A stretch of DNA of 64,000 nucleotides from Sphingobium sp. BYY-5. GTDB lineage: Bacteria > Pseudomonadota > Alphaproteobacteria > Sphingomonadales > Sphingomonadaceae. Under the pieces are notes generated by a model. That model was not told the DNA's origin. It ran no database searches and saw only the letters and a program-made list of their open reading frames with translations. The position numbers were made by a program, and so were the translations under genes. Within the stretch, counting starts at the first letter, position 1. Each line of letters starts with the position of its first letter. This document shows positions 2,327 through 17,953 of this stretch, one piece after another. The stretch spans positions 914,501 through 978,500 of the forward strand of contig NZ_JALEBH010000002.1 in the NCBI RefSeq assembly GCF_022758885.1, in the 5' to 3' direction.

Positions 2327-2340
2327 GCCGGCGTGGAACC

Positions 2341-3012
2341 TTATACCCTTCCCGTCACCGGGATGAGAGCACCCGTGATTGCCCGCGCTTCCGACGACAG
2401 GAGGAAGGCCGCCACTGCCGCCAGTTCCTCCGGAGCTACCCAGCGGGCAAAATCCGCATCGGGCATGTCCCTGCGGTTGGCGGGGGTGTCGATGATGCTG
2501 GGCAACAATGCGTTCACTCGCACGCCCTCATCCTTATGCTCTTCCGCCAGTGCCTCGGTCAGACGGGCCACGCCGGATTTGGATGCGGCATAGGCGCCCA
2601 TCCCCGCGGCTGCCTTGACTGACGCCGCCGCGCCGATATTGACGATCGCTCCCTTGTTCGCCCGCAACAGGGGCAAGAGCGACCGGCTGGCGATCAGCGC
2701 CGTCCGCACATTCATGGCATAGAGCCGATCCCACGTCTCCACGCTGCCGTCCGCCACGGTTTCCCAAGCAAAGCCGCCCGCAATATTGACCAGCCCATCC
2801 AGGCGGCCCAGCTCGCTTTCGATCCGGGCAGCCGCATCGGCCATTGCCGTTTCGTCGCTCAGGTCCACGCCACCCAGCGCGAGCGCCAGTCCCGGCGTCG
2901 CGACATCGGCCAGATCGATCCCCACGACGGACCATTGCGCTGCGCGCAAATGCTCCACCACCGCACGCCCCAGGGCGCCCGCCGCCCCCGTCACTGCCAC
3001 AACGCCCTTCAT
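2341..3012 (-). CDS. Short-chain dehydrogenase/reductase (SDR)
   Basis: This is a classical SDR of 223 residues, a cytoplasmic NAD(P)-dependent oxidoreductase. The cofactor motif TGAAGALG is at residues 8-15, the NIAGG motif near 76-80 and the catalytic YAASK near residue 145. The overall length is slightly short for the family (about 250). The substrate is not evident. It lies just left of the mandelate-type island on the opposite strand. Its upstream region (3085-3102) holds only a poor, one-sided match to the operator palindrome of that island, so membership of the same regulon is unproven. Confidence 0.88.
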   Translation of the reverse strand: MKGVVAVTGAAGALGRAVVEHLRAAQWSVVGIDLADVATPGLALALGGVDLSDETAMADAAARIESELGRLDGLVNIAGGFAWETVADGSVETWDRLYAMNVRTALIASRSLLPLLRANKGAIVNIGAAASVKAAAGMGAYAASKSGVARLTEALAEEHKDEGVRVNALLPSIIDTPANRRDMPDADFARWVAPEELAAVAAFLLSSEARAITGALIPVTGRV

Positions 3013-3508
3013 CGCCTTCTCCTTTTCCCGACAGCTGGAGGAAGGACGGCTGCGCCACCCCCCTGCCCTGCCGACTAGTCGATTGATTTTGATATTCGAG
3101 AGCTACCTAGCCTCAAGCGGTATCGAGTGTCAGAAGAGCTTTCGGCCGGGCGACCTAAGCGATTGATTTCGCAGCAAAATCATAAACTTAAGAATTCGCC
3201 ATGGGCAGCATTAGCATGCTTTCAATTCGTGGAATAGGCTGGACGGCGATGGACGTAGTGATTTGAGTGCTCGTGCGGTCCAGTGCATCTGATCTTGGGA
3301 CATTCGCGACAGTCAGCTTCTGAACACAAATCTGCGAATGCGGCCGTTCCGCTATCATCATGTCTGCGATCGGAACTACTTTCGGTTTGGGCGTCCGCAG
3401 AATACAGCTCCGCTTTCCCGGTTTGAAACTCAGGGACGAAAGTGCTCCAGATGGCTCGCTTCTGCAGTTTCCATAGCCCGTGCCTTGCATCCGCCCATGA
3501 GTTGCTTT
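3013..3508. other. Intergenic region without a supported gene
   Basis: About 500 bases separate the SDR start from the first island operator. Base composition is visibly lower in GC than the flanking genes. Overlapping open frames on the minus strand (up to 160 codons, 3222-3704) have no Shine-Dalgarno, no recognisable motif and atypical composition, so I do not call them. A short direct repeat CGATTGATTT occurs near 3080 and 3159. The stretch may be a degenerate remnant of transferred DNA. Confidence 0.5.
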
Positions 3509-3526
3509 TAGTTTGATATCCAACTA
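3509..3526. promoter_or_regulatory. Candidate MarR operator, mdl promoter
   Basis: TAGTTTGATATCCAACTA is a near-perfect 18-bp palindrome (16 of 18 positions symmetric) upstream of the decarboxylase and mandelate dehydrogenase genes. Related palindromes lie at 7305-7322 and 16602-16619, each before a gene of the same catabolic island. The size and symmetry suit a MarR dimer, and a marR gene lies at 6597-7091. This site is 226 bases before the first start codon, further than at the other two promoters, leaving a long leader. Confidence 0.7.
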
Positions 3527-3752
3527 GTATGACTCGGGAGAAGAAGCAAACGGGGGAATTGATGCCGTCGCCAGGGTCCGTGTCGCTGCGATTTGCCTTG
3601 GGTGACGGGCCGTCACCGCGCGATTCCACCCGGCCTAGGCGGACAAAAGGCGGTATCCTCTGCGACCACCCCTTCCTGTCCCGTCTCACACTCGGCCAAC
3701 TCAATGAATTCGCCCCTCGTGCCGATGCACAAATAGAAAGTTCGTTTTAATC

Positions 3753-5465
3753 ATGTATACGACATCGAGCGCTTTTCTGGACGCACTGATCGAACATGGC
3801 GTTTCGTATATCTTCGCCAATCTTGGCAGCGATCATCCTGCGTTGGTGGAAGCCATCGCGGAGGCGCGCGCGCAGGGGCGAAAAATCCCCGAGGTCGTGA
3901 CTTGTCCCAATGAAATGGTCGGCATGAGCGTCGCGCACGGTTTCTGGCAGACTAGCGGTGAGCCACAGGCCGTAGTGGTGCATGTCGAATGCGGCACCCA
4001 GGCCTTGGCCGGCGCGGTGCATAATGCGGCCAAGGGCCGGGCGCCGATGCTGATCTTCGCCGGCGCGTCGCCCTTTACCCAAGAAGGCGAGCTTAAAGGA
4101 AGCCGGAACGAGTTCATCCAGTGGATACAGGATGTGCACGACCAGCGCGGCCTTGTTCGGGGCTATATGCGCTATGACAGCGAAATCCGCACCGGCCGGA
4201 ATGTCAAGGATCTGGTCCACAGAGCCTTCCAATTCGCCCAGTCGGAACCCCAAGGGCCCGTCTATTTGATGGGCGCGCGCGAAGTGATGGAGGAGGAGGT
4301 CGAGCCGAAAGCCGACCAGTCGGCAGCCTGGCGCCCGATCGAGCCCGCCGCGCTCACGCCCGAAGCCCTTGACGACATCGGCCGCGCCCTGCTGACGGCC
4401 AGACGCCCCCTGATTGTCACCTCTTTTGCGGGACGCGATCCCGCAGCGGTGCCTGCGCTCGTCAGGCTGTGCGACGCGCTGGGGATAGGCGTTCTGGAAT
4501 CCGTGCCCAATGCGATGAATTTTCCGCACGATCACCCCCTCTATCTGGGCAATCAATGGAACCAGCCGGTCCAGAATGCGGACCTCGCCGAAGCCGACGT
4601 CGTCCTGGTGATCGACAGCGACGTGCCCTGGATCCCCACCGTGTCGCGCCCTTCGCCCTCCGCGCGTATCTTCCACATCGACGTCGATCCGCTCAAGGAG
4701 CAGATGCCGCTATGGCACGTCCCGGCGCAGCGCGTCTGCCGCGCCCAGGCGGCCACGGCATTGGGCCAGCTCTCTGCATGGCTGGAGGGTCAATCCATCG
4801 ATCCGGCGCAAGTAGAAGACCGGAAGATGCATTATGCGGCGCGTCATGCCGACCGCGACCGGGCGCTGGCGGAACTGGAGGCCGCGCCTGTCGGCAAGAT
4901 CACGCCGGAATATTTCCTGTCCCGGCTGCGCGCCGCGCAGGATGACAGCATGATTTTCGTGAACGAGGCCATTTCCAACTATCCCAACGTCTTCAACCAC
5001 CTGTCGCTCAATCGACCGGGCGCTATTCACACCAGCGGCGGCGGCTCGCTCGGTTGGAACGGCGGCGCCGCCATCGGCGTGAAGCTCGCACGTCCGGACG
5101 CCACCGTGGTCGCCCTGACGGGAGACGGGTCCTTCATGTTCACCGTACCCAGCTCCGTCCACTGGATGGCGCGCCGGTACGAAGCGCCGTTCGTCCAGAT
5201 CATCTTCAACAACCGGGGCTGGAAATCGCCCAAGCTCTCCACCCTCGCCGTCCATCCCGAAGGATATGCGGCGCACGCCGAAAGTCTCGACACCTCCTTC
5301 GACCCCGCCCCGGATTATGTCGGGATCGCGACAGCCGCCGGCAATGGATGGGGTCGGCAGATCAAGGATCCTGCGGAAATAGACAGCGCCATCGCCGAGG
5401 CTTTGCGGGTCGTGAGAGAAGAGCGTAAATGCGCCATATTGGACGTCTGGCTGGATCATCACTGA
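3753..5465 (+). CDS. ThDP-dependent decarboxylase, benzoylformate decarboxylase-like
   Basis: This 570-residue thiamine-diphosphate enzyme has the usual PYR, central and PP domains. The PP-domain ThDP/Mg motif is GDGSFMF at residues 457-463 followed by FNN at about 485-487. Glu54 in CPNEM is the probable cofactor-activating Glu. Ser26 in LGSD and His77 in VVHVECG align by eye with catalytic Ser26 and His70 of Pseudomonas putida benzoylformate decarboxylase (MdlC). Overall it is clearly divergent from MdlC and could be annotated as acetolactate-synthase-like. The next gene is mandelate dehydrogenase, starting 2 bases after this stop, so conversion of benzoylformate (or a ring-substituted analogue) to benzaldehyde is the best inference. 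The Shine-Dalgarno before 3753 is weak. Confidence 0.8.
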   Translation: MYTTSSAFLDALIEHGVSYIFANLGSDHPALVEAIAEARAQGRKIPEVVTCPNEMVGMSVAHGFWQTSGEPQAVVVHVECGTQALAGAVHNAAKGRAPMLIFAGASPFTQEGELKGSRNEFIQWIQDVHDQRGLVRGYMRYDSEIRTGRNVKDLVHRAFQFAQSEPQGPVYLMGAREVMEEEVEPKADQSAAWRPIEPAALTPEALDDIGRALLTARRPLIVTSFAGRDPAAVPALVRLCDALGIGVLESVPNAMNFPHDHPLYLGNQWNQPVQNADLAEADVVLVIDSDVPWIPTVSRPSPSARIFHIDVDPLKEQMPLWHVPAQRVCRAQAATALGQLSAWLEGQSIDPAQVEDRKMHYAARHADRDRALAELEAAPVGKITPEYFLSRLRAAQDDSMIFVNEAISNYPNVFNHLSLNRPGAIHTSGGGSLGWNGGAAIGVKLARPDATVVALTGDGSFMFTVPSSVHWMARRYEAPFVQIIFNNRGWKSPKLSTLAVHPEGYAAHAESLDTSFDPAPDYVGIATAAGNGWGRQIKDPAEIDSAIAEALRVVREERKCAILDVWLDHH

Positions 5466-5467
5466 AG

Positions 5468-6580
5468 ATGAAGCGAGGGCTGTTCACGATCGAGGATTAT
5501 CGACGCGAGGCGCGGCGGCGCCTGCCCCATATGGTTTTCGATTATCTTGAAGGCGGCGCGGGCGACGAACGCGGGCTAGAACGGAACATTGCGGCCTTTT
5601 CGCGAACGCTGCTTCAACCGAGACGACTGGTCGACGTGTCCCTCCGCAACCAGTCGGTGGCGCCGTTCGGCCACCCTTGGGCCAGCCCTTTCGCGATCGC
5701 ACCAATGGGTCTCAACTCCGCGATCTGGCCGGGCGGTGACCTGATCCTCGCCAGGGCCGCTGCCCGGGCGGGCATCCCCTTCTGCCTGTCGACCGCGGCC
5801 AACGCCACGGTCGAAGAAATCGCCGCAGCGACGGACGGGGAATTGTGGTTTCAACTCTATGTGGTCCAGAGATCGCTGGCGGACCAGCTGGTGCGTCGCG
5901 CCGAGGCGGCGGGATGCACCACGCTTGTCCTGACCGTCGATGTCGCCACAAATGGCGACCGGATAAGGGACAAACGATCGGGGTTCGGCATTCCGTTCCA
6001 CTATTCGCCGCGGATCATCTGGGATGCGGCGACCCATCCCCGATGGTCCGTGGCGCAGCTGATGCACGGCTTTCCCCAACTAGCGCATTTTGCAGGGGGA
6101 TCGAATGATATCGAGGCGCAGGCGGCGCTGATGTCGAGGCAGATGGACGCCAGTTTCGACTGGGATGCGCTCAGCCGTTTGCGCGACCTGTGGAAGGGCA
6201 CCCTGCTGGTCAAGGGCATCATGCGGAGCGACGATGCGGCGCAATGCGAGGCACGCGGCGTCGATGGCCTGATCGTGTCCAACCATGGCGGTCGCCAGCT
6301 CGAAGATGTGCCCGCGACCATCGACATTCTGCCGTCGATCCGAAGCGCGTGCACTATTCCTCTGCTGATCGACAGCGGAGTGCGCAGCGGCGCGGACGTG
6401 ATCAAGGCTCTGGCCAAGGGTGCTGCCGGTGCCCTGATCGGGCGCCCGCTGCTGTACGGGCTTGCGGGGGGCGGGACGGGCGGCGTCGATGCCGTTCTTC
6501 AGATCATCCGGCAACAGGTCGACAACACGCTCGCTCTTGTCGGCCACCTGAATGCTGGCACTCTGTGTAAAGCGATATGA
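5468..6580 (+). CDS. mdlB: FMN-dependent (S)-mandelate dehydrogenase
   Basis: A 370-residue member of the FMN-dependent alpha-hydroxy acid oxidase family that would oxidise (S)-mandelate to benzoylformate. Similarity to P. putida MdlB is strong and residue-level: FDYLEGGAGDE near the N-terminus, RRLVDVS, GLNSAIWPGGD, ELWFQLYV, and the diagnostic ALMSRQMDASFDW where MdlB has the same with N for the final D. The catalytic-His motif SNHGGRQLE is at about 271-279 and the FMN phosphate region LIDSGVRSG follows. I chose the ATG at 5468, matching the family N-terminus. An in-frame ATG at 5429 inside the upstream gene has a better purine-rich leader and would add 13 residues. Translationally coupled to the decarboxylase. 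Confidence 0.9.
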   Translation: MKRGLFTIEDYRREARRRLPHMVFDYLEGGAGDERGLERNIAAFSRTLLQPRRLVDVSLRNQSVAPFGHPWASPFAIAPMGLNSAIWPGGDLILARAAARAGIPFCLSTAANATVEEIAAATDGELWFQLYVVQRSLADQLVRRAEAAGCTTLVLTVDVATNGDRIRDKRSGFGIPFHYSPRIIWDAATHPRWSVAQLMHGFPQLAHFAGGSNDIEAQAALMSRQMDASFDWDALSRLRDLWKGTLLVKGIMRSDDAAQCEARGVDGLIVSNHGGRQLEDVPATIDILPSIRSACTIPLLIDSGVRSGADVIKALAKGAAGALIGRPLLYGLAGGGTGGVDAVLQIIRQQVDNTLALVGHLNAGTLCKAI

Positions 6581-6596
6581 CAGCAAATCGGCATCC

Positions 6597-7091
6597 TCAA
6601 GGACGCTGTTTCAACTCTTCCGCCAGCTTTTTGAGTATCTGAAGGAACATCACCCGGTTGTCGCTTCCGACGATACGATCGATTTCTTTGTCATGGGCCA
6701 GGGCATGCGATTCCAGCTGCCTTAGCTGTTCCCCACCCGCTGCGCTCAGTATGAGCCGGACGTTGCGTCGATCGGTTTCGTCCCGCGTTTTTTCGACCAG
6801 TCCAGCTTTCCCGAGTTCGCGAAGCGATGCGGTCAGAGTGGATTTGTCTCTTCCCGTCGCTAGGCTGAGTTCGGTCTGGTTTATGCCGGGATTATCATTG
6901 ATGATCTTCAGGAGCGAATACCAGCCGGGCCAGATGCGCGTGTCCCCTACCATGCGCGCATAGGCGGCAAAGGATGCCTCCTGGGCAAGACGAAGATGAT
7001 ACCCAACGACGTTGTCCAGGCCGCCAGTCCCGATCACGGTCGGGACCTTGTCGCCTGCCTTTTTCTTCCCTCGTGACGAACCGCTGTTCAT
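6597..7091 (-). CDS. MarR-family transcriptional regulator
   Basis: A 164-residue winged-helix regulator. It has the MarR recognition region INQTELSLATGRDKSTLTA (about 91-109) and the wing DETDRRNVRLILSAAG (about 124-139). A strong G-rich Shine-Dalgarno sits directly before the ATG at 7091. It is convergent with mdlB and divergent from the aldehyde dehydrogenase gene, the usual position of a local MarR repressor of aromatic catabolism. The three palindromes at 3509, 7305 and 16602 are its likely targets, with ligand (mandelate, benzoylformate, aldehyde or a CoA ester) unknown. No copy of the palindrome is seen before its own start, so autoregulation is not supported. Confidence 0.92.
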   Translation of the reverse strand: MNSGSSRGKKKAGDKVPTVIGTGGLDNVVGYHLRLAQEASFAAYARMVGDTRIWPGWYSLLKIINDNPGINQTELSLATGRDKSTLTASLRELGKAGLVEKTRDETDRRNVRLILSAAGGEQLRQLESHALAHDKEIDRIVGSDNRVMFLQILKKLAEELKQRP

Positions 7092-7304
7092 TCACCCCCC
7101 CTGAGCTTCCTGTTCTTGGTGACAACCGCGCGACCAAAGCCATGCCGTATGCGCATGCATCCGATCCCACGCAAGCCCCACCACGTCGGTCATTCCTCTA
7201 GCCGCACAGGACAGCCAGGGACTTCGCGATCGATCGAGGCGACCAGATATAGCATCCCTGCCGACGCTGTCAGTCTAGCACAGCGAGCCTCGCCCGTCAG
7301 ATAT

Positions 7305-7322
7305 TGGTTTGATATAAAACTG
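7305..7322. promoter_or_regulatory. Candidate MarR operator, aldehyde dehydrogenase promoter
   Basis: TGGTTTGATATAAAACTG is the second copy of the island palindrome (12 of 18 positions symmetric, core GTTTGATATaAAAC). It ends 46 bases before the preferred start codon at 7369. The third copy is 42 bases from the MFS start, so the geometry is nearly the same at both promoters, as expected for a repressor site overlapping a promoter. Confidence 0.7.
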
Positions 7323-7368
7323 TATGGCGCTAAAAGTGCGCGGAGAGAGACGAGCCAGGAGAAGGTCG

Positions 7369-8769
7369 ATGCCTAGTTTCACCCGTATGAACCCGGTTAC
7401 CGGGGATGTCGCCTCCAATGCCGAAGCCATGACGGTGGATGCCGTCCGTGCCATCGCGGCCAATGCCGGCCGCGCCTTTCCACAATGGGCTTCGGTCGGC
7501 CCTAACGCCAGGCGCGCCATATTGAACAAGGCTGCCGACGCCCTGCTCGCCAGAGAGGACGCTTTCGTCGATGCGATGATGGGCGAAATCGGCGCAACCC
7601 GCGGCTGGGCACTGTTCAACCTGACACTGGCTGCCTCCATCGTGCGGGAAGCCGCCGCGCTCACCACGCAGATCGCGGGAGAGGTCATCCCTTCGGACAA
7701 GCCTGGGTGCCTGTCGATGGCGCTCAAGGAGCCGGTTGGCGTCATCCTGGGTATCGCGCCGTGGAACGCGCCGATCATCCTTGGGGTGCGCGCGATCGCA
7801 GTGCCGCTTGCCTGCGGCAATGCCGTGATTTTGAAGGCGAGCGAAATCTGCCCCCGTACCCATGCCCTGATCATCGAGGCTTTCGCCGAGGCAGGATTTC
7901 CCGAGGGGGCAGTCAATGTCGTCACCAACGCGCCGGAGGATGCGGGCGATGTGGTGGGCGCGCTGATCAACGCGCCGGAGGTGAAACGCATCAACTTCAC
8001 CGGATCCACCCATGTCGGGCGGATCATCGCCAAGCGTGCGGCGGAGCATCTCAAGCCCTGCCTGCTGGAACTGGGCGGAAAGGCGCCGCTGCTGGTGCTG
8101 GAGGATGCCGATCTGGATGAAGCGGTGAAGGCCGCCGCCTTCGGCGCCTTCATGAACCAGGGACAGATCTGCATGTCGACTGAGCGGATCATCGTGGTCG
8201 ATGCGGTGGCGGACGCCTTTGCCGAAAAATTCGCGACCAAGGTGCGCTCGATGCACACCGGCGATCCCCGCGAGGGCAAGACACCGCTGGGCGCTGTTGT
8301 CGACCGCAAGACCGTGGATCATGTCAATGGACTGATCGGCGATGCGGTGGAAAAGGGCGCGCGTTTGATCGTGGGCGGTGCGGCGGACAGCGTGCTGATG
8401 CCCGCCACCGTCGTGGATGGCGTCACTTCGGCGATGAACCTCTATCGGGATGAGAGCTTCGGGCCAGTCGTCGCGATGATCCGCGCCCGTGACGTCGATC
8501 ATGCCGTGGAACTCGCCAATGACAGCGAATACGGTCTTTCCGCAGCTGTGTTCACGCGCGACACTGCCATGGGGCTTTCGGTCGCGCGGCGCATCCGGTC
8601 GGGCATCTGCCATGTCAACGGGCCTACCGTGCATGACGAGGCGCAGATGCCCTTTGGCGGCGTGGGCGCCTCGGGCTATGGCCGCTTTGGCGGGCGGCAG
8701 GGCGTTGATAGCTTCACCGAGACACGCTGGATCACCGTCGAAACACAGCCCGGTCATTTTCCGATCTGA
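7369..8769 (+). CDS. Aromatic aldehyde dehydrogenase (benzaldehyde/vanillin type)
   Basis: An NAD(P)-dependent aldehyde dehydrogenase of 466 residues. Catalytic Glu234 is in LLELGGKAP and nucleophile Cys268 is in GQICMSTERI, wording typical of vanillin, salicylaldehyde and benzaldehyde dehydrogenases (LigV/XylC-like). I chose ATG 7369 because AGGAGAAGG lies at the right distance. A longer frame from 7324 would put the start directly on the operator and adds a basic, non-homologous stretch. In context it would oxidise the aldehyde released by the ThDP decarboxylase to the aromatic acid, the MdlD step. Single-gene transcript with a strong hairpin after the stop. Confidence 0.88.
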   Translation: MPSFTRMNPVTGDVASNAEAMTVDAVRAIAANAGRAFPQWASVGPNARRAILNKAADALLAREDAFVDAMMGEIGATRGWALFNLTLAASIVREAAALTTQIAGEVIPSDKPGCLSMALKEPVGVILGIAPWNAPIILGVRAIAVPLACGNAVILKASEICPRTHALIIEAFAEAGFPEGAVNVVTNAPEDAGDVVGALINAPEVKRINFTGSTHVGRIIAKRAAEHLKPCLLELGGKAPLLVLEDADLDEAVKAAAFGAFMNQGQICMSTERIIVVDAVADAFAEKFATKVRSMHTGDPREGKTPLGAVVDRKTVDHVNGLIGDAVEKGARLIVGGAADSVLMPATVVDGVTSAMNLYRDESFGPVVAMIRARDVDHAVELANDSEYGLSAAVFTRDTAMGLSVARRIRSGICHVNGPTVHDEAQMPFGGVGASGYGRFGGRQGVDSFTETRWITVETQPGHFPI

Positions 8770-8771
8770 TC

Positions 8772-8805
8772 TGATGACGGGGCGGCTGACACCGCCCCGT
8801 CATCA
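8772..8805. terminator. Strong hairpin between convergent genes
   Basis: TGATGACGGGGCGG and CCGCCCCGTCATCA form perfect 14-bp arms with a 6-base loop, right after the aldehyde dehydrogenase stop. It separates that gene from the convergent rhamnosidase gene. No T-tract follows on the plus strand. Confidence 0.7.
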
Positions 8806-8888
8806 GCGCACCGCAAAGGCCCGTACACCGGGCATGCTGCCGGCCTGCGGACACGACGAGGAAATGTCCTGCCCTTCGAATTTCGCGT

Positions 8889-11800
8889 TCAATCCTGTCG
8901 ATTGCCGCCATGTCCGTCGGCCTCAACCCGCTCTTCCAGAACCAGGCTGACCGGCCCCATCAGGCCGGAGGGCAGCAGCTTTGACTCCTTGGTGTAGGGA
9001 TTGAATACGGCCAGCGCCCTGGGACCATCATATCCGGGCTGCTGATCCCCGATAAGGCGGTTCGGCCACAAATTGGTGACGGCGATTTCCACGATATTGC
9101 GGCCGGGGCGGACTGCCTTGCTGATATTGAGCGCATAGGGGTTAGTCCAGGCCAGACCCGCGTCGATCCCGTTGACTTTGACCCGCGCCATTTCCCTTAG
9201 ACCGCCCAGATCGATCTTCACTTGCCGAGACGCGCCCAGCCATGTGGACGGAATATCCACTGTCGTCTTGTAGACGGCAGTGCCGGAAAAATACTTGATG
9301 GCGTCATCACTCGACTCCGTCCACGATCGCAGGCGCCAAGGGGTCTGGATACGAGCCCCGGGCACTTGCAGGCTCCAGGTCGATGTCAGGGGCAAACGCT
9401 CTTTCTGGACTATAGTCGGCGCGTCCCAGCGCGACGCGGGCGCCTTTCCACGAAAAACGACGAAGAGCGCTTCGCCGCCCTGAAGCACGAGCGGCAGTTC
9501 CATCCGGTCGCCGACTACCCTGTAGCTGACGGGCGCCATGCTGCCATCTACCGCCTTCCATATCTCCGGCACTCGATCGGCCACGCGGAACTGCCCTACG
9601 AACCGCACCGCTTCGGCCGATGTATTGGCAAGGAAATAGATGTCCGCATCGGGCAGCAGCCGATGAACAAAGCCGGCGAGCTTCGGGCCGTCGTAAGCGC
9701 GCGTGGAGAAATCCGGAGCGAGACCCATACGATCAAGCGCCTGGCCGACGCTGCGTTCGAGCGGCTCTAGCATATCGGTCGACCAGATGGCATTTGCTAC
9801 GCGATCCCACTCCAGCCTGTCGTCGGTCAGGCTTGGCGACCCAATCGGCCGTCGACCGATGATCGGCACCCCTGCGCGCTTGGCCTCCAGCAACTTCCTC
9901 AGGACCGGCAAGGAGATTTCGGTTGCTTGCGGATCGATCGCCAACACGGCGTAGCTCGCACCGCCCGGCGCCACCAGACGACCGTCCTGAACCGTCATCT
10001 CCTTCTCCAGTGCATCGGCGCTCATATAATCAAAGCTATAGCCGTCAGGGAGCTTAGGACCCGCCGTCGCGAAGCGGTTGGTGATATTGTCGTCTTCGCT
10101 GTAAAAATAGGCGATATCCGCGACCGCCCGCCCCTGCTGCAACAGGTACGAGCTGCGTCCAAGATATTGAATCCAGGCGCCCGCCTCAGAAGCCCAGCTT
10201 TCTTTCCGGGTAAACCATTGGCCGAACGAGCCAAGCCCCACACCGGGGCCGGCCGCTTCCAGGGGCTGATGGACGGAGGTATGAATGACGAAGCGATTAA
10301 GGCCGTAGGACATTTCGCGGTCGGCCGTGGCCTTCAGCCCAGCAGGCGAAAAAGCATAGGTGTCGCCACTGGCCGTGAAGGATTCCGCAGCAACAAGATT
10401 CTGTCCATAGATGCGTGCGACAGACGCTGACTCGCGTATGTCGGCCTCGTACATGGCGTCCTGGCCCTCGCGTCTGGCCCACATAGCGCCCATTGGTATG
10501 GTTGCCGAGGCCTTGACCGCCATGCCGTCACCGACAAATGCGCGTCCGGATTCATGCGCCTCACCATAGCGGCCCATGCCCCGGCTTTTCAGCTCGGTGG
10601 AAAGCTCGCCATAATGTTCGTCGGCGATCATCTCGCCCAGGGTTTTGCGAAAGTCCCAAAGGACCGCCTCGCTTCGTTCGGAACTATCCAAAGGTTCCCC
10701 GGCCAGCACGGGAAGCCAGCAGGTGAGATCATACCCGCGACGCTGCCTGAATTCCGCCAACATGCCTTCAGTCCAATTCGAAGGCCCAGCCTCGAAACTG
10801 TCGGTCATCACATAGCTGATGCTGTTCGCGCCCAAAGGCGTTAGATTTAGCGCGCTTTGATAGTTGGCGAGATATTTATCGACATAATCCCGCACATGAT
10901 TCCGATTGAGCTTGTCGACCTCCAGCCCTTCTCCCCTGGCGGAGGCAGGACCATTGGTATGCCCCTCCAGCGACCACCCGAAACGATAGATCGTCCAGCG
11001 ACCGCCCGAAGGCTTCCAGTCCAGCGTTCCATCGGCCTTCAGGTGCTGGCTGATATCTAGAACCTGTGGATATTGCGCGATGCCTCTAACTTGCGGGGTG
11101 GGGAAAATCGGCCAGTCGGGCCTTTCACCAAACCCCGCCTTGTCCTCGAAGCGGTGGATCCGTGCACGGGAGTGCAGCCGCAGTTCCGCGATCTTCAGGG
11201 GCGGCAATGCGCTGCCTTCCCGGACCGTCTCCGGCGGACTGAACCTGACGCGGAACGTGGTCGATCGCGTGGATGGAAAACTGACTGTCTGATGTTCAGA
11301 GCCGCGGACCGGCAGTTCGCCGATCGTACGGAAACGCCCGTCGGCTGCAAGCGCCTCGATTATCCCGCGGGGCCCCCGCGCGCCTGCCGGGCCTCGCCCT
11401 GCAACCCGTTCGGCCACAAAGCTCAGCGCGGCGATGCTTTGCGGACGATCAAAATCAAACCGCACCCACGCTTCGCGATCGCCAGTATAGGGGATGGACA
11501 GGAAATGATCGAACACATCATCGTCGAGGATGGAAGAGTTGCCCTCACCGCTGCTGATCGATATGCGCGGGCGGATATCTGCCTGCCCGGCTGGCACCGG
11601 AACCGCGATTACTGCCACGTCTCCGCAAGCTGCTGGCGGCTTTTCAAACGGCCTGCCGGTCAGGCCGGCGGAAAAGCCCTGATGCGCGTGCAAGGTCTGG
11701 AACGGTCCGGTCTCACAGGGCGCCTTTGGAAGCGAGATCGAGCGAGCACCACTTTTGACGTCGACCGAACTCCAGACCAACTTTTTCATGGCCTGGCCGG

Positions 11801-12194
11801 GCTTCACCCATGGCCCGCCCGTCTCGCTCCATCCTGGTGACGCCGAGATGGCAAATTCCAGCCCTAGTGCATTCGCCTTCTGGACCGCATGTTTGAACAG
11901 GGCGTCCCATTGCGGAGACAGATATTCGGCCGGGTCGGGGACAAGCACCGGAGTCTTTAGCGCCGCATCGAAGTTCTGCACCCCTGCGATGCCGATGGAT
12001 GCCAGCCATTCCAGATCGGCATCGATGCCCTCCTTCGTCACGTTGCCGTTCATCCAGTGCCACCAAACCCTCGGCCGCGCTTCGGCGGGAGGATTGCTAA
12101 ATCCGGCGGCTAGAGGATCATTCGCCGTCTCTGCGCCATAGGAAGGGGATGTCACGCATATCAAGCAAACGGCCGGCAACAGGACTTTTCTCAA
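8889..12194 (-). CDS. Secreted GH106-type alpha-L-rhamnosidase
   Basis: A 1101-residue protein with a signal peptide ending near PSYGAE. Directly after it comes PRVWWHWMNGNVTKEGI with a following GIAGVQNFDA, the hallmark start of glycoside hydrolase family 106, founded on an alpha-L-rhamnosidase of Sphingomonas paucimobilis. The catalytic region extends through AESFTASGD and ends in a carbohydrate-binding-like beta-sandwich near residues 965-1065 (VYKTTVDIPSTW, VKVNGIDAG). Length matches the family. It would remove terminal L-rhamnose from a glycoside in the periplasm or at the surface. It lies 95 bases downstream of a TonB receptor on the same strand, so the receptor may import the glycoside. 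Specificity for an aromatic rhamnoside is inferred from the surrounding island. Confidence 0.9.
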   Translation of the reverse strand: MRKVLLPAVCLICVTSPSYGAETANDPLAAGFSNPPAEARPRVWWHWMNGNVTKEGIDADLEWLASIGIAGVQNFDAALKTPVLVPDPAEYLSPQWDALFKHAVQKANALGLEFAISASPGWSETGGPWVKPGQAMKKLVWSSVDVKSGARSISLPKAPCETGPFQTLHAHQGFSAGLTGRPFEKPPAACGDVAVIAVPVPAGQADIRPRISISSGEGNSSILDDDVFDHFLSIPYTGDREAWVRFDFDRPQSIAALSFVAERVAGRGPAGARGPRGIIEALAADGRFRTIGELPVRGSEHQTVSFPSTRSTTFRVRFSPPETVREGSALPPLKIAELRLHSRARIHRFEDKAGFGERPDWPIFPTPQVRGIAQYPQVLDISQHLKADGTLDWKPSGGRWTIYRFGWSLEGHTNGPASARGEGLEVDKLNRNHVRDYVDKYLANYQSALNLTPLGANSISYVMTDSFEAGPSNWTEGMLAEFRQRRGYDLTCWLPVLAGEPLDSSERSEAVLWDFRKTLGEMIADEHYGELSTELKSRGMGRYGEAHESGRAFVGDGMAVKASATIPMGAMWARREGQDAMYEADIRESASVARIYGQNLVAAESFTASGDTYAFSPAGLKATADREMSYGLNRFVIHTSVHQPLEAAGPGVGLGSFGQWFTRKESWASEAGAWIQYLGRSSYLLQQGRAVADIAYFYSEDDNITNRFATAGPKLPDGYSFDYMSADALEKEMTVQDGRLVAPGGASYAVLAIDPQATEISLPVLRKLLEAKRAGVPIIGRRPIGSPSLTDDRLEWDRVANAIWSTDMLEPLERSVGQALDRMGLAPDFSTRAYDGPKLAGFVHRLLPDADIYFLANTSAEAVRFVGQFRVADRVPEIWKAVDGSMAPVSYRVVGDRMELPLVLQGGEALFVVFRGKAPASRWDAPTIVQKERLPLTSTWSLQVPGARIQTPWRLRSWTESSDDAIKYFSGTAVYKTTVDIPSTWLGASRQVKIDLGGLREMARVKVNGIDAGLAWTNPYALNISKAVRPGRNIVEIAVTNLWPNRLIGDQQPGYDGPRALAVFNPYTKESKLLPSGLMGPVSLVLEERVEADGHGGNRQD

Positions 12195-12250
12195 GATGTT
12201 GACCTTTAGAGGAGTTGTCTATGTCGGCCCGGGCGGCGCTTCCCTGTCGG

Positions 12251-12285
12251 TTGCCCGGGCGGCGGTTTAAACGCCACCCGGGCAA
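12251..12285. terminator. GC-rich hairpin between receptor and rhamnosidase genes
   Basis: TTGCCCGGGCGGCG pairs with CGCCACCCGGGCAA with one mismatch around a short AT loop, overlapping the gap between the receptor stop and the rhamnosidase start. It may attenuate transcription within the operon, or protect the receptor mRNA 3' end so that more receptor than enzyme is made. Confidence 0.5.
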
Positions 12286-12289
12286 GCTC

Positions 12290-14920
12290 TCAGAACTTCG
12301 CCCCAAGCGTGAGGAAGAACGATCGTGCCTGGTTCAACAAGATATTGAACGGCGCGGTCGGGTTAGCAGCAACCTGCGCGGGCGTCAGATTCTGCCGGTT
12401 GAGCGCGGCGAGCAGGGCGCCCGACGGCGCCCAGGACAGCACGCCCTTCGAGTTGAACACGTTGTTCACATTGGCGCCGACGCTGATATTTTCAGTCAGG
12501 TTCCAGTTCATGCCTAGGTCCACCTCATGATAAGCGGGCAGATTGAAAGCATTGTACCGATTGGCCGGGCGCTTGCCCAGATAGCGCCATGTCACGAAGG
12601 TCGAGAAGGCCTCGTTAGGGGTATATCGCAACGTGGATGTGGACATGATTTTCGCGGCGTTATCCGCCTTGCCGTCAGGCACCGCCACGATTGTGTCGTC
12701 TTGGGGGCCAGGCGCGCCGAAATTATAGGTCGCGAACCCCTTTGACTTCGAATCCTGCAGTGTTAGCGCAACGCGAAGGTTGAGGCTCTCGATCAAATTG
12801 GCGTCCGCCTCCAGTTCAACACCATAAGTCTTTGTCGAGGACAAAAGCGGCGCCGGCACGTAGGAAGTGCCATCGACATTGGTCCCGAAGGCGGTGGTCC
12901 CGACGTTGCTGAGCTTGCTGTAAAACGGCGTCAATGTCGCGCGCAACGGCCCCTGCCGGAAACGATAGCCTGCTTCGATCTGCTGGATCTTCTGCGGGAT
13001 CGGCACCACGTTCTGCAACTCAGGCAGCGTATCGTAGGCGGTGAAGAAGCCGAAGTCCGGCGCCTTCTTGCCTTGCGAATAGCGGACGTAGATCGAGTTA
13101 TTGTTATCGAACTTATACGTAGTGGCCGCCGAAAAGGACAGGAAATCGAGGCTGAACCGATATTGGAAAGGCGTCAGATATGTCACCGCAAAATTATCGA
13201 ACAGCGTGTTGGGGTTGCCGTCCAGGCCACCATAGGCGCTATTGCCCGACTGCGGGTTAGCGATGGCAACGTCATTCGACCCCTTGTTGCGGATATACTC
13301 GTAGCGCAGCGCACCTTCGACCGTGAGCCCGTTCAGAATTTCGTAGTCGGCGCCGCCGAAGATCGAAAACTGCCGCTGCTTCCCGCGATAGGGCACGCCA
13401 AGAAACCGTTGGCCGATACCGGCAAAACCTGCGGAATTCGTCACATCCTTGACCACACCGCCCGGAGTGGTGAGTGTTATGCCCAGCATATGCGGCTGAT
13501 TTTGAAGGGTCGAAACGCCGAAGCCTGCGCCGCCACCTGCTTGGCTGACGGTGGCGTCGGCCAGAAACGCGCCGAGCGTGATGCTTCCCCGGTCCAGCTT
13601 TTTGGAAATACTGAACTGATCCATGATCTCGCGGACCTTGGGATCGAAGTTGAATGCGGTCTGGGTGATGATGGGATTGGCGATCACCTGCGCATTGGGC
13701 AAGGAACTGGACAGGACGGTGCGCGTTCCGTTGACGTTCTGAACCTGGGCAAGAACCTGGCCCGTCACCAAATCGCGATAAGAGTAAATCCCGTTGGCAG
13801 ACGTGTTCAGAAGCGTGTTGGTGAAGCTGTCGGTGATCGGCAGGGCAAATGCCAGCGCCGTGCTGTCATAGTCCGCCTTGTTCCAGTTGGCCTTGAAATT
13901 ATTGCGCACCGTCCATCCGCTGTCGGTGGTGTGATCAAACTTCATGCCTATCATCTTGACCGTAGAACGAACGAGGTTGCGACCGTTCCATCCCTTGACC
14001 GGACCATTGATGGTTTCGACATAGTTGTGGGGAGCGGCCGGGACCAGAAACGAATCATAGCGTGAGATGCCTGGCGCAAGGCGTGGATCGCTGAAATCGA
14101 CGGCAGGTTGGAACTCGTAGAACGCGTTCCGATCATCCTGATATTTGCCGTACAGAAGGACCGATCCGTTGCCATAGTCCCACAGCAGATTGCCTTTCAC
14201 ATGGCCACCGCGGTTCATCGGATATTCGTTGTCGCGGGCGCCCTTGCTGTGGCGGTAAAAACTGCTGATACTATAGTAGAGATCGCTCGTACCGATCTGG
14301 CCGCCTGCGCGCGCGTCGATGCGGTAATAAGGATAGCGGCCATTGCCTTCCAAGCCGAGACGAACCCGCATTTCGAGGCCCGGATCGTCCTTTCCAGTCT
14401 TGGAGATATAGTTGAAGATGCCGCCAGGCGCATTGGGGCCAGTGACGACCGCGGTGCCGCCGCGCAGAGCCTCCAGCCGCTCGAGGCTGAGGTCCTGCCG
14501 ATAGAAGAAGTCCGGCGTATAGTTGGTGGTCGTCACGTTCGTGACCGGCAGGCCGTCTTCCTGCAAAGACACGTAATAATAGCCTGTCGACGCCTCCGTC
14601 GAATTGGCCGAAATGCCGCGCGAGTAGACAATGTTTCGCACTTCGCCGAGGGCGGAGTTGACGAACACACCCGGAACATTGCGCAGTAGATCGGCAGCAC
14701 TGGCCGGTACGGACTGCTGCAAGGTGGCGGTATCGAGCGTGGAAACCGCCACCGAAACCGGCGCGCGCGCGGTAAGCGTTCCAGTTACGACGATATCTGC
14801 GGAAGCTGCTGTTTCTTCACCTTGTGCCGATGTTCCGACACGAGTCTGTGCAAAAACCGGATTACTAATAGTAATCAACGCCGCGCTAGCCATTAGGACT
14901 AATTTATATTGACGGTTCAT
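12290..14920 (-). CDS. TonB-dependent receptor, glycoside/aromatic island
   Basis: An 876-residue outer-membrane transporter. Its signal peptide ends at PVFAQ, with a TonB-box-like ADIVVTGT at about residues 41-48. The plug includes LLRNVPGVFVNSA, VYSRGIS and GPNAPGGIFNYISK (about 78-175), and the barrel ends in FFLTLGAKF with a terminal Phe. It is the size of sphingomonad nutrient receptors rather than of small siderophore receptors. It shares strand and probably transcript with the rhamnosidase downstream and the MFS importer upstream, so uptake of a plant-type glycoside or aromatic compound is the simplest reading. The ligand is inferred, not shown. Confidence 0.92.
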   Translation of the reverse strand: MNRQYKLVLMASAALITISNPVFAQTRVGTSAQGEETAASADIVVTGTLTARAPVSVAVSTLDTATLQQSVPASAADLLRNVPGVFVNSALGEVRNIVYSRGISANSTEASTGYYYVSLQEDGLPVTNVTTTNYTPDFFYRQDLSLERLEALRGGTAVVTGPNAPGGIFNYISKTGKDDPGLEMRVRLGLEGNGRYPYYRIDARAGGQIGTSDLYYSISSFYRHSKGARDNEYPMNRGGHVKGNLLWDYGNGSVLLYGKYQDDRNAFYEFQPAVDFSDPRLAPGISRYDSFLVPAAPHNYVETINGPVKGWNGRNLVRSTVKMIGMKFDHTTDSGWTVRNNFKANWNKADYDSTALAFALPITDSFTNTLLNTSANGIYSYRDLVTGQVLAQVQNVNGTRTVLSSSLPNAQVIANPIITQTAFNFDPKVREIMDQFSISKKLDRGSITLGAFLADATVSQAGGGAGFGVSTLQNQPHMLGITLTTPGGVVKDVTNSAGFAGIGQRFLGVPYRGKQRQFSIFGGADYEILNGLTVEGALRYEYIRNKGSNDVAIANPQSGNSAYGGLDGNPNTLFDNFAVTYLTPFQYRFSLDFLSFSAATTYKFDNNNSIYVRYSQGKKAPDFGFFTAYDTLPELQNVVPIPQKIQQIEAGYRFRQGPLRATLTPFYSKLSNVGTTAFGTNVDGTSYVPAPLLSSTKTYGVELEADANLIESLNLRVALTLQDSKSKGFATYNFGAPGPQDDTIVAVPDGKADNAAKIMSTSTLRYTPNEAFSTFVTWRYLGKRPANRYNAFNLPAYHEVDLGMNWNLTENISVGANVNNVFNSKGVLSWAPSGALLAALNRQNLTPAQVAANPTAPFNILLNQARSFFLTLGAKF

Positions 14921-15182
14921 GTAACTCTCCCTGATTTATCCAAATTCTTTTTTTGTGATCTCCACGTATCGATGCACGGTGGCCCCACAATTGAAACTTG
15001 GATTGTTGAAAAAATTTTGGCGCGGTATCTGCAGATGTCCGAAAAAATCCTATGATTGACACCGTTAGTTATCCATCGATCAAGCGACGCAAGCAGCTTA
15101 TCCGCCCCGGTAGGCATACGAGCCTCTGTGATCCGAGTGGCCCCGATGGCACCCGTCAAGATTTGCCGGGAGCGGGTCATTG

Positions 15183-16559
15183 CTAGCTGCTACGGCGGCC
15201 GAGCGGCGTTGGCGCGGAGATATGTTTTCGCAGGATCAACAGGGCGAACAGCGAGCCGAGCATCGCAATCACAATGAGCATGAAATAAGGTTTGCCACCG
15301 CCGGTCGCGATCACCGCCGCGCCGGCAAAGGCACTGGCGATCGCCCCCATACGTCCGATGATCAGCGCGACGGCGGTCCCGCTGGCGCGGACATGCGTGG
15401 GATATAGGTTGGCGGAAACGGCATACATGGTGGACTGAACGGCGTTCACGAAAAGACCATTTATGGCGATGCCAATGGTCAGAATGAGTGGGGCAGCAAC
15501 GATATTCGTCACCGAGAGGAGCAAGGCGCTGCCCGCAGCGCCCGCGCAGCAGAACACCAGCGGCCAGCGGGATCCGAAGCGCTTGATCGCAAATGCGCAG
15601 GTCAGCGCCCCAAAAATCCCCCCGAGATTATAGAGGGTGAGCCCCGCAGAAGCCTGGGCCACGTCCAGCCCCTCGCTGCTCAACAAGGTCGGCAACCAGC
15701 TAAAAACCAGATAGACAGAGAGCAGCGTGAGAAAGAATGCTGTCCAAAGCGCATAGCTGCTGCCTGCACGACCTTCCGCAACGATCGCCCGCAAACCTCC
15801 ACCATCCCGCACCGACGATGTTTCGTCGCCGTCGACAAAGACGATATCGCTGCGGAACCCATGGCCGCAACGCGCAAGCAATCGCGCCAGTTCAGGCGAC
15901 CCCGGTCGACACCGCGCGAGCCAGCGCGGGGATTCCGGCATGAGCATGAAGAGAACCAGCGCAAAGAAGACCGGGATCGCCCCGCCAATGTGGAACAGTG
16001 CGGTCCACCCGTAAGCAGGCAGGATCTGGGACGCGAAGATGCCCGCGAACATGCCGCCGACGGGAACGCATACGATCGTCGCCGTGACCGCCACCGTCCG
16101 GTTGCGGGCGGGCATGAATTCCGCCGCCATGGTTGTCGATGTCGGTAACGCGCCGCCGATGCCCAGACCTGCGATAAAGCGCAGCGCGCCGACCATTACG
16201 ATGTCGGCCGAAAAGCCGATGGCAATTGTCGCCAAGCCGAAGGTCAGGATCGAACCAACGATCGCGAGTCGCCTGCCGAATAGGTCCGCGGCATAACCGG
16301 CAACGCCACTGCCGACCGCCATACCCAAAAGCCCCATGGCCACGACCGGAGCAAAGTCCGCCTTGGGTACATCCCATTCGGCGATAAGCACCGGCAAAGC
16401 GAAACCGAACAGCTGGCCATCGAAGCCGTCGAGGATGATTGAGAGGGCGGCCAGCAGCACGACCGCGATCTGCAGTCGGCTTGTCGCACTGCCGTCGATC
16501 AGCGCCGCCACGTCGACAGCCTCTGCTTTCCACGGTTCGGACGAAGCGGCATGCTTCAT
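15183..16559 (-). CDS. MFS aromatic acid:H+ symporter (AAHS/PcaK-like)
   Basis: A 458-residue inner-membrane transporter with 12 predicted segments. DGFDGQLFGFALP in the first segment carries the DGxD signature of the AAHS family (PcaK, BenK, VanK). The loop motif GYAADLFGRR, the PESPRWLAR stretch before the central loop and RASGTAV late in the protein also fit. I prefer ATG 16559, which has GAGGGG at good spacing; a GTG at 16583 would add 8 residues. The operator palindrome lies 42 bases upstream, matching the spacing at the aldehyde dehydrogenase promoter. It probably imports the aromatic acid handled by the Mdl-type enzymes and may head a transcript with the receptor and rhamnosidase. Confidence 0.88.
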   Translation of the reverse strand: MKHAASSEPWKAEAVDVAALIDGSATSRLQIAVVLLAALSIILDGFDGQLFGFALPVLIAEWDVPKADFAPVVAMGLLGMAVGSGVAGYAADLFGRRLAIVGSILTFGLATIAIGFSADIVMVGALRFIAGLGIGGALPTSTTMAAEFMPARNRTVAVTATIVCVPVGGMFAGIFASQILPAYGWTALFHIGGAIPVFFALVLFMLMPESPRWLARCRPGSPELARLLARCGHGFRSDIVFVDGDETSSVRDGGGLRAIVAEGRAGSSYALWTAFFLTLLSVYLVFSWLPTLLSSEGLDVAQASAGLTLYNLGGIFGALTCAFAIKRFGSRWPLVFCCAGAAGSALLLSVTNIVAAPLILTIGIAINGLFVNAVQSTMYAVSANLYPTHVRASGTAVALIIGRMGAIASAFAGAAVIATGGGKPYFMLIVIAMLGSLFALLILRKHISAPTPLGRRSS

Positions 16560-16601
16560 ACGCCATCCCCTCACATACGCCACTCACTGACGATTTGGTT
16601 T

Positions 16602-16619
16602 TAGTTTTATACCAAACTA
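16602..16619. promoter_or_regulatory. Candidate MarR operator, MFS promoter
   Basis: TAGTTTTATACCAAACTA is the third copy of the island palindrome (14 of 18 positions symmetric). It lies 42 bases before the MFS start codon and shows that the minus-strand arm of the island (importer, and perhaps receptor and rhamnosidase) is under the same control as the Mdl-like enzymes. Confidence 0.7.
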
Positions 16620-16841
16620 TTTGTCTTATGAGACACTCCGGCTAAGGATGCAAGTCCGATCGAAGACACTGTGTTGATTCCTGCCCGGCATTGTTTGGGG
16701 AAGGTGCTGTCGAAGCAAAGGACAATAGATAGGCGGCGCTTTGGCATCCCAATCCAGCCCATACACCCCGGTTCGGGCTGCTCTGCTGACTGGCTGCTGT
16801 TACCTCGATCACCGGTCCCGGCGCGACCTGACATTCCGCTG

Positions 16842-17276
16842 CTACCTCGGAATGGCTTGAGTTGGTCGCGACATGCCGGTTAGCGGACGGACGAGCAGGT
16901 CTCCGCCTATGAAGGCTTGGCATGCCGCCTTGATGGCGTCGAGCTTGGCCTGCCGCTTCTTACCGGACATCTCCTCCAGCGCCTCGACACTTGCATCTTG
17001 GCCGATGTCTTCGCGAAATACCGTGATGTCGATGTCCTCGGAGAAACGCTGAATCAAGCCGAAGCCCTTCGACAGCGACGTACCCCCTTTGAACAGGAAG
17101 CGCGGACCATGGGATGCCGGACCGTTGAACAGCGCGTCGAGGGTCCAGCAGACCCAGAAATCCTTCTCGATATTCTGGGGCGCTGTGCCGAGCCGCTGCC
17201 CGGCGCCGATGAATACATCCCGTCGATCCGTGGGATCGGCCGCCAGAAACTGGGCGTAAGCGGGGTTCATTGTCAT
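16842..17276 (-). pseudogene. Truncated AbiEii-type nucleotidyltransferase toxin
   Basis: The 144 residues match the N-terminal half of AbiEii/AbiGii toxins. EKDFWVCWTLDALF is followed by the nucleotidyltransferase motif FLFKGGTSLSKGF at about 61-73 and the acidic SEDIDI at about 79-84. Family members are about 300 residues. Here the match stops near residue 132, with an unrelated tail and a stop. No remaining toxin sequence is seen in any frame downstream to the MFS promoter. It overlaps the antitoxin stop by 4 bases. I treat it as a toxin cut by rearrangement, probably inactive, although the core active-site motifs remain. Confidence 0.75.
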
Positions 17277-17944
17277 GCTCGCTTGGTCTTCAGGCGGTCA
17301 GCTGACGAGGTAACCGGTATCGTATCGCGCAGGATATTCTGCATCCAGAGCGGGAGCGTCAGCATATCGGCCTGGAGGTCGTTGACGATGTCGGCGCCGT
17401 GATCAGGGTGGGCGAAGATGGTGCGCAGGCGCTTGGCAACAGCCGGATCGGTGTCGCCCCCGGCGTCGTGCAACCAATGCAGGGCCTGAACGACACGCAT
17501 CGCTGGCCGCCCAGCCCAGTGAAGCCGACTTGGCGCAGTGGTTTTGAAATCGATCTTGAGGTTGCCGAGCGTAATGGGCTTCAATCTTGCATCGGTATGG
17601 ACGACGATGCGAGCCGGGACGGCATCGGAGAGTCCTAGATCGTTGGCCGCGGTTACGCCATCGACGAGGATACGGGCTTGGTCCCGGCGAGCCAGCGCAT
17701 CGACGACGGCGCGCGGATCGGGGTGCGTGGACTTGCCCGTGAGGGGGTTGAGTTTGGGCTTGTCATAGAGGCCACGGGCAATCCTGCGAATGTCGCCATT
17801 GCGGGTCAGTCGATGGAGCGCCTGATCGACGGCGTCGCGAGAGCCGAGATCGAGAAAGTCCTGCGGCGTCCAGACTGAAGGCACGCCTCCGGAGACCATC
17901 CGGCTTGATATGGCACTTTTGAGATCGAGACCCGGCCCGCGCAT
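17273..17944 (-). CDS. AbiEi-type antitoxin / DUF6088 repressor
   Basis: A 223-residue protein with an N-terminal winged helix (VDQALHRLTRNGDIRRIARG, then LYDKPK) and a C-terminal domain as in DUF6088/AbiEi antitoxins. Such proteins repress their own operon and neutralise an AbiEii toxin, which is encoded directly downstream with a 4-base overlap. I use ATG 17944, with AAAGGA just upstream. A longer frame from 17986 would run through the inverted repeats that look like its operator. The gene appears intact although its partner is truncated, as in decayed type IV systems. Confidence 0.8.
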   Translation of the reverse strand: MRGPGLDLKSAISSRMVSGGVPSVWTPQDFLDLGSRDAVDQALHRLTRNGDIRRIARGLYDKPKLNPLTGKSTHPDPRAVVDALARRDQARILVDGVTAANDLGLSDAVPARIVVHTDARLKPITLGNLKIDFKTTAPSRLHWAGRPAMRVVQALHWLHDAGGDTDPAVAKRLRTIFAHPDHGADIVNDLQADMLTLPLWMQNILRDTIPVTSSADRLKTKRA

Positions 17945-17953
17945 GGTAATTCC

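Follow-up and report, generated by a model that had tools for sequence, protein, structure and literature searches.

A probable mandelate-type catabolic cluster interleaved with a separable rhamnosidase-receptor pair in Sphingobium sp. BYY-5

Does an alpha-L-rhamnosidase that lies among genes for mandelate-type oxidation share a substrate with them? The question is raised by a stretch of 64,000 nucleotides from Sphingobium sp. BYY-5, referred to here as the window, which covers bases 914501-978500 of contig NZ_JALEBH010000002.1 (C2), a 1.30-Mb replicon in a 4.70-Mb genome that is 99.7% complete in two contigs. An earlier reading made from the letters alone (the sequence-only reading) had placed six genes in one fused pathway for a rhamnosylated aromatic hydroxy acid: three for a mandelate-to-benzoate route, a glycoside hydrolase of family GH106, a TonB receptor and an aromatic-acid importer of the major facilitator superfamily (MFS). 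We consider that the locus probably holds two independent catabolic units that are interleaved, namely an arylglycolate regulon controlled by a MarR-family regulator and a receptor-GH106 rhamnoside unit. The direct basis of this reading is the gene identities, the clustering of the first unit, the distribution of a shared palindrome and the recurrence of the second unit without mdlB. The genes are as follows.

3753..5465, + strand: thiamine diphosphate (ThDP)-dependent enzyme of the PRK08327 family; three TPP_enzyme Pfam domains, NF006203 at 680.3 bits
5468..6580, + strand: mdlB-type flavin mononucleotide (FMN)-dependent (S)-mandelate dehydrogenase; 399.9 bits to 6bfg, 342.5 to 1huv
6597..7091, - strand: MarR-family regulator; MarR-type NCBIfam matches, none over cut-off
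7324..8769, + strand: aromatic aldehyde dehydrogenase (salicylaldehyde/vanillin type); 812.3 bits to 6qhn, 802.7 to 9ihb
8889..12194, - strand: GH106 alpha-L-rhamnosidase; PF17132 at 907.9 bits (cut-off 29), 745.6 bits to 6q2f
12290..14920, - strand: TonB-dependent receptor paired with GH106; PF07715 and PF00593
15183..16583, - strand: aromatic acid/H+ symporter-type MFS transporter; TIGR00895 at 289 bits, below the cut-off of 418.55

All six genes of the sequence-only reading exist in the order that it gave and close to the coordinates that it gave; the MFS gene ends at 16583 rather than 16559, mdlB likely starts at 5468, and the MarR gene had been overlooked. The ThDP-mdlB pair and the aldehyde dehydrogenase gene are on the + strand, the receptor-GH106 pair and the MFS gene on the - strand. 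The open reading frame (ORF) of the FMN enzyme is listed as 5429-6580; since its alignment to solved mandelate dehydrogenases begins at residue 14, the likely start is 5468, two bases past the ThDP stop. Its best solved relatives (6bfg and 1huv) are both (S)-mandelate dehydrogenases, with 213.6 bits to glycolate oxidase, 196 to 4-hydroxymandelate oxidase and 303-315 bits, spread over four stretches, to the lactate-oxidase constructs 7f20/7f22 (720-736 residues); beyond these constructs, solved enzymes of other kinds score no higher than 214. On the LldD model it reaches 267 bits against a cut-off of 550. In a tree of 23 rows, from which the fragments of loci L035 and L093 were left out, its partners (100/100) are the MdlB rows of three Novosphingobium strains, and the three FMN enzymes taken from GH106 stretches are placed apart. 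The host genome has one strong FMN_dh match. Judged by sequence, the enzyme is nearer MdlB than the lactate or glycolate enzymes, and (S)-mandelate oxidation is predicted.

The ThDP enzyme had been called an MdlC-like decarboxylase. The family assignment did not hold: the enzyme exceeds the NF006203/PRK08327 cut-off (680 bits against 456) and falls below that of the benzoylformate-decarboxylase model NF005485 (149 against 493), and its alignment to solved benzoylformate decarboxylases reaches 95.9 bits at best. The part that stood concerns the active site. We take the catalytic residues of benzoylformate decarboxylase to be S26, E47, H70 and H281, in roles and numbering; S26, E54 and H77 of the window enzyme align with the first three, and the H281 position is variable. 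The Ser, the Glu and the first His are kept in the window enzyme and five near homologues, the Glu being common to the ThDP enzymes aligned. Two of the strain's own ThDP paralogues (L010, L012) lack both Ser and His, another (L009) lacks the His and is unaligned at the Ser, and the fourth (L011) gave no usable match in the alignment. With the Ser, Glu and first His kept and the H281 position variable, decarboxylation of an arylglyoxylate is plausible. The enzyme, as aligned, is a member of a family other than MdlC that keeps two hallmark residues of benzoylformate decarboxylase, and is a probable arylglyoxylate (benzoylformate-type) decarboxylase.

The nearest solved relative of the aldehyde dehydrogenase is a salicylaldehyde dehydrogenase (812 bits), followed by a vanillin dehydrogenase (803). 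The MFS transporter is 56-57% identical to one encoded beside MdlB in a metagenome-assembled genome (MAG) of the Acetobacteraceae and is probably an importer of an aryl acid. The MarR regulator is 56-65% identical to those of clusters in three Novosphingobium strains (SG751A, SG707 and SG919, the SG strains), Novosphingobium humi and Novosphingobium capsulatum. The proteins scanned in the window's first 20 kb include no mandelate racemase (MdlA), the genome not having been searched for it.

Comparison of the intergenic stretches of the window revealed a 16-base near-palindrome, AGTTTKRTATMAAACT, defined on the second and third of the following operator-like sites only.

3510..3525, + strand: site 1, AGTTTGATATCCAACT, one mismatch, 243 bases before the ThDP gene
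7306..7321, + strand: site 2, GGTTTGATATAAAACT, one mismatch, directly before the aldehyde dehydrogenase start
16603..16618, - strand: site 3, AGTTTGGTATAAAACT, no mismatch, before the MFS start

The pattern then picks out site 1 before ThDP-mdlB, and no fourth site exists in the 64 kb at up to three mismatches, the stretch before the receptor-GH106 pair (14921-15182) included. At up to one mismatch the window has three sites; 200 shuffled palindromes averaged 0.015 sites and never exceeded one. Elsewhere, at up to two mismatches, eight sites were found, in six of nine loci of the ThDP-module type; there were none in 14 other MdlB loci (256 kb), in 17 GH106 loci (301 kb) or in six other C2 stretches of the host (116 kb). 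The sites lie before the aldehyde dehydrogenase or ThDP gene in the SG strains, and before the ThDP gene in Novosphingobium sp. PP1Y and both Aliihoeflea loci. MarR probably acts at this palindrome, which we regard as its predicted operator.

A search of genome contigs with MdlB gave 20 loci, several of them shorter than 21 kb (L024 4.4 kb, L035 10.5 kb). A PRK08327-type ThDP gene (at least 60% identity) is present in 4 of the 20, from SG751A, SG707, SG919 and Verticiella. Identities to the window in the SG strains are 82-83% for the ThDP enzyme, 68-71% for MdlB, 76-78% for the aldehyde dehydrogenase and 56-57% for MarR; the corresponding values in Verticiella are 64%, 54%, 62% and 44%. The aldehyde dehydrogenase is 75-81% identical across six Novosphingobium mdl-type loci. 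The order in SG707 is nitrilase, aldehyde dehydrogenase, TonB receptor, ThDP, MdlB and AraC, followed by a second TonB receptor, a 304-aa protein, nitrilase, MFS and MarR. Both nitrilases, AraC, the 304-aa protein and the MFS gene are kept in SG751A and SG919, where one nitrilase is cut or split. A plasmid record of N. capsulatum has aldehyde dehydrogenase, receptor, an unidentified protein, a 2-dehydropantoate-reductase-like gene, ThDP, MFS and MarR, then pcaF, catC, a dioxygenase and muconate cycloisomerase, and further on a ring-hydroxylating dioxygenase; N. humi has the same seven-gene order. In PP1Y the order is MarR, aldehyde dehydrogenase, receptor, AraC, nitrilase, MFS, reductase-like and ThDP. 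Nitrilases therefore accompany four of the six Novosphingobium ThDP-module loci, those of PP1Y and the SG strains. In N. capsulatum, N. humi and PP1Y the ThDP gene has the ketopantoate-reductase-like gene as its neighbour. The structures that this reductase-like protein matches are '2-dehydropantoate 2-reductases', one of them being 3wfi, which we take to be a D-mandelate dehydrogenase; the order in the Acetobacteraceae MAG is MFS, reductase-like, MdlB. Among 249 genomes sampled from the family, the host genome is the only one with MdlB (E 1e-100) and likewise the only one with the ThDP enzyme (E 1e-120), 1/249 in each case. Moreover, a conserved protein of 304/305 aa lies beside a TonB receptor in the Novosphingobium mandelate-type clusters (L018:15445-16359, L061:13147-14064); it has no Pfam or NCBIfam match, and the L018 copy also has no solved relative. 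The proposed mandelate-type oxidation route is supported by family assignment, conserved clustering and the common operator-like palindrome, and the same holds for the MFS transporter as part of it, with a palindrome upstream of its gene.

The GH106 gene lies downstream of the receptor gene on the same strand, and its product has a signal-like N-terminus, as judged by eye. Its D465, E468 and E604 align with D503, E506 and E644 of 6q2f, positions that we presume to be catalytic. The host genome contains three GH106 genes, each adjoining a TonB receptor, so that the pairing is no peculiarity of this locus; the three receptors show little resemblance to one another. One of the two other C2 GH106 genes adjoins a 2-keto-3-deoxy-6-phosphogluconate-type aldolase and a 2-keto-3-deoxygalactonokinase, and no rhamnose genes were found among ten proteins scanned near those two. 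The scanned proteins of the 0-20 kb part of the window include no second glycosidase, nor were RhaT, RhaD/ADH or LldD found around its receptor-GH106 pair.

GH106 (E 1e-200) occurs in at least 14 of the 249 family genomes, host included, counting the best three candidates per genome; one relative (G045) carries it at 40021-43311 of a 200,048-base contig. Fifteen GH106 stretches were taken from 13 other family genomes. None contains a PRK08327 or mdlB-grade match, and matches to a TonB profile built for this analysis are present in nine, lying within 700 bases of GH106 in four. FMN enzymes occur in four (L088, L090, L093 and L097) with 125-253 bits to MdlB, the 125 belonging to a gene cut by the stretch end; the two that were scanned (L090 and L097) are both over the LldD cut-off, and some rhamnosidase loci seem to carry a lactate dehydrogenase of their own. 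The receptor (E 1e-100) was found in at least two of the 249 genomes, the host and a relative designated G115, from the best three of up to 139 candidates per genome. The G115 receptor, 59% identical and the nearest among the matches listed, stands beside GH106 in a rhamnose-use locus without mdlB, in the order unidentified gene, LldD, RhaT, DeoR-type regulator, receptor, GH106, rhamnose isomerase (637 bits, a narrow miss of the 646.75 cut-off) and RhaD/ADH. In a tree of 32 rows, built from one best tblastn piece per locus and with the window row flagged for unusual composition, the window GH106 groups (100/100) with that of Caulobacter rhizosphaerae (47% identical). This Caulobacter gene is in a sugar-type locus, with an alpha-L-rhamnosidase, a tannase/feruloyl esterase-type gene, a D-lactate dehydrogenase, an IlvD/Edd dehydratase and receptors as neighbours. 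A search for sites common to the receptor upstream stretches in GH106 loci gave only 14-mers with two mismatches.

Whether the six genes stay together could be followed from both sides. GH106 (E 1e-15) was found in none of the 20 MdlB loci within the fetched flanks, just as none of the 15 GH106 stretches has a PRK08327 or mdlB-grade match. At the level of whole genomes or records, 20 sources of mdl-type loci were compared (three plasmid records and those of 17 of the 20 MdlB loci); GH106 is present in five, that is in 5/6 Novosphingobium and 0/14 others. N. humi G5 has a receptor (40.5%) and GH106 in window order, with the aromatic module about 14 kb further along the same megaplasmid; a further N. 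humi record places about 73 kb between receptor and ThDP gene, and GH106 in PP1Y is about 182 kb from the ThDP gene. The pair thus occurs without mdlB in G115 and N. humi, and the link that had been drawn from GH106 and receptor to the mandelate genes was not upheld; in relatives the pair stands largely without Mdl genes. What had been called a fusion is a physical neighbourhood only, of genes on differing strands. Because the pair occurs without mdlB and its upstream stretch lacks the palindrome, we rejected a fused rhamnoside-mandelate system as the best reading. From its sequence context, the pair looks like a separable rhamnoside operon lodged inside a mandelate regulon.

In the scheme that we infer, the MFS transporter would import an arylglycolate, which may be mandelate or a ring-substituted mandelate. 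Oxidation of the (S)-2-hydroxy acid by the MdlB-type flavoenzyme would give the arylglyoxylate, from which the PRK08327-type enzyme would remove the carboxyl group; the aldehyde dehydrogenase would then turn the resulting aromatic aldehyde into the aromatic acid. Derepression by MarR would open three operons (ThDP-mdlB, aldehyde dehydrogenase and MFS). Probably expressed independently, the TonB receptor and GH106, as one of three such pairs in the genome, may take up and trim a rhamnoside.

Several observations weigh against this two-unit scheme. True benzoylformate decarboxylases encoded in MdlB loci share only about 25% identity with the ThDP enzyme, whose H281 position is variable, and an Aliihoeflea relative of it (31% identical) has the His but Thr at S26. 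The palindrome pattern was derived from two of its three window sites; N. capsulatum and N. humi have sites only at three mismatches, between the aldehyde dehydrogenase and receptor genes, Verticiella also matches only at three mismatches, and no palindrome is present in L024, the short MAG locus from which the closest MFS comes. In the host genome both BenA (best 82.6 bits, cut-off 781) and PobA (34.9 bits, cut-off 539) are far below cut-off, and a benzoate or 4-hydroxybenzoate ring route in the host is not indicated by these values. Novosphingobium with the aromatic module commonly have GH106 as well. Lastly, four points touch the separation of the units: N. humi carries both on one replicon; the receptor-GH106 pair sits between two palindrome-marked genes (aldehyde dehydrogenase and MFS); Passiflora is reported to contain rhamnosyl-glucosides of (R)- and (S)-mandelonitrile (PMC7866531, in excerpt); and the host genome has no TIGR02629 rhamnose isomerase match, other isomerases and non-phosphorylative routes not having been searched. 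In control genomes TIGR02629 gave a match in 3/14 and exceeded its cut-off in none.

An alternative that is compatible with two units concerns the substrate of the first. It is possible, though we would hold it only tentatively, that unit 1 serves lignin-derived aryl-C2 acids rather than plain mandelate, i.e. 4-hydroxy- or 4-hydroxy-3-methoxymandelate and the matching benzoylformates. This is consistent with the low BenA score and with the second rank of vanillin dehydrogenase among solved relatives of the aldehyde dehydrogenase, and Rhodococcus jostii RHA1 uses benzoylformate decarboxylase and vdh for such acids, according to the excerpted text of PMC9811514. However, the PobA score is also far below cut-off, and the N. 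capsulatum unit-1 cluster adjoins genes for catechol ortho-cleavage.

The four points just listed also speak for a single system, in which receptor, GH106, MFS and mandelate enzymes would together serve a rhamnosylated aromatic hydroxy acid or a cyanohydrin glycoside. In particular, because the genome lacks a TIGR02629 rhamnose isomerase, use of the sugar is not an obvious purpose of the GH106 pair. We nevertheless judge a single system unlikely, given the unmarked stretch before the pair and its occurrence without mdlB in G115 and N. humi; moreover, only one of the genome's three GH106-receptor pairs is near mdl, and GH106 is the sole glycosidase in the scanned 0-20 kb. A nitrile source in the host strain was rejected, its genome reaching at best 40.6 bits on the nitrilase model TIGR04048, on which the two SG707 nitrilases score 175 and 229, themselves below the cut-off of 502.6. 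A more specific form, in which the receptor-GH106 operon was recruited to strip rhamnose from mandelonitrile or mandelate-type rhamnosyl-glucosides outside the cytoplasm and the MFS transporter imports the aromatic part into the MarR-controlled route, is quite improbable; if true, it would amount to a pathway devoted to rhamnosides of aryl cyanohydrins or arylglycolates. The rhamnosylated-mandelate idea of the sequence-only reading is thus unlikely and lacks support.

That the FMN enzyme is instead an L-lactate dehydrogenase of rhamnose catabolism, with the aldehyde dehydrogenase making lactate from lactaldehyde, was raised by the LldD genes in GH106 stretches of relatives and fits the single strong FMN_dh match of the host, but is very unlikely and was rejected on sequence and tree, as the enzyme is below the LldD cut-off, nearest to mandelate dehydrogenase and apart from the LldD rows, the aldehyde dehydrogenase is of aromatic type, and rhamnose use offers no obvious role for the ThDP partner.

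Other features surround the two units. A second catabolic cluster lies just before the window (L013, C2:899000-915000, at 1066-12733), with an AMP-ligase, an aldehyde dehydrogenase, a ThDP enzyme, a ring-hydroxylating dioxygenase, an FMO-like oxidoreductase and a short-chain dehydrogenase/reductase. Adjoining the MFS gene is a DUF6088/AbiEi-like gene (17273-17986, - strand) with an overlapping ORF of 144 aa (16842-17276, - strand); the two are perhaps an AbiE-type pair. Close to the catabolic genes is a RepA (RPA)-ParB-ParA set at 21597-25191, which suggests that the window holds the C2 origin of replication. Copper-resistance genes for a multicopper oxidase and CopB are at 35669-38328. A promoter and terminator scan gave results at chance level only, and a repeat search over 2900-18400 gave short matches only.

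Sphingomonads on plants and in soil encounter cyanogenic and lignin-derived aromatics. If the two-unit reading is right, they would possess a mandelate route of their own. In it the decarboxylase slot would be filled by a different ThDP family and the dehydrogenase slot by either MdlB or a ketopantoate-reductase-like enzyme, and some strains would have nitrilases too. The predicted MarR palindrome would mark the members of the route and offer a cheap test of which neighbours belong to it. A rhamnosidase beside an aromatic pathway is not in itself evidence of a common substrate.

The locus is probably a variant of mandelate catabolism with an alternative ThDP family. The mandelate pathway of Pseudomonas putida is encoded by mdlABCD, and the window resembles it in clustering an aromatic aldehyde dehydrogenase with a ThDP decarboxylase slot and a dehydrogenase of MdlB type. 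Unlike it, the window has a ThDP enzyme that is not an MdlC orthologue, no racemase among the proteins scanned, and a MarR gene with a palindrome that also marks the MFS gene. No description of a GH106-mandelate combination or of the palindrome was recognised among the matches listed in the open-access literature. In Pseudomonas fluorescens EBC191 a nitrilase is found together with mandelate genes (PMC8955678, in the portion available), and the SG-strain and PP1Y relatives of the module likewise sit with nitrilases, unlike the host genome with its 40.6-bit match against 175-229 for SG707. The Pseudomonas bzfRABCD cluster, as described in an extract of PMC7760541, comprises a decarboxylase, an MFS transporter, an aldehyde dehydrogenase and an outer-membrane channel for benzoylformate; it has a LysR regulator and an OprD porin, whereas the window has MarR and the Novosphingobium versions have TonB receptors. 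For the second unit, the G115 rhamnose locus is alike in its receptor and the GH106 beside it, but differs from the window in having RhaT, RhaD/ADH and LldD and in the swapped order of receptor and GH106. The window GH106 is 38.6% identical to the one on the PP1Y plasmid, which we take to be RHA-P. RHA-P of Novosphingobium sp. PP1Y and SpGH106-1 of Sphingobium are GH106 alpha-L-rhamnosidases that act on flavonoid or saponin rhamnosides (PMC10653915, in excerpt), and like them the window enzyme is a sphingomonad GH106.

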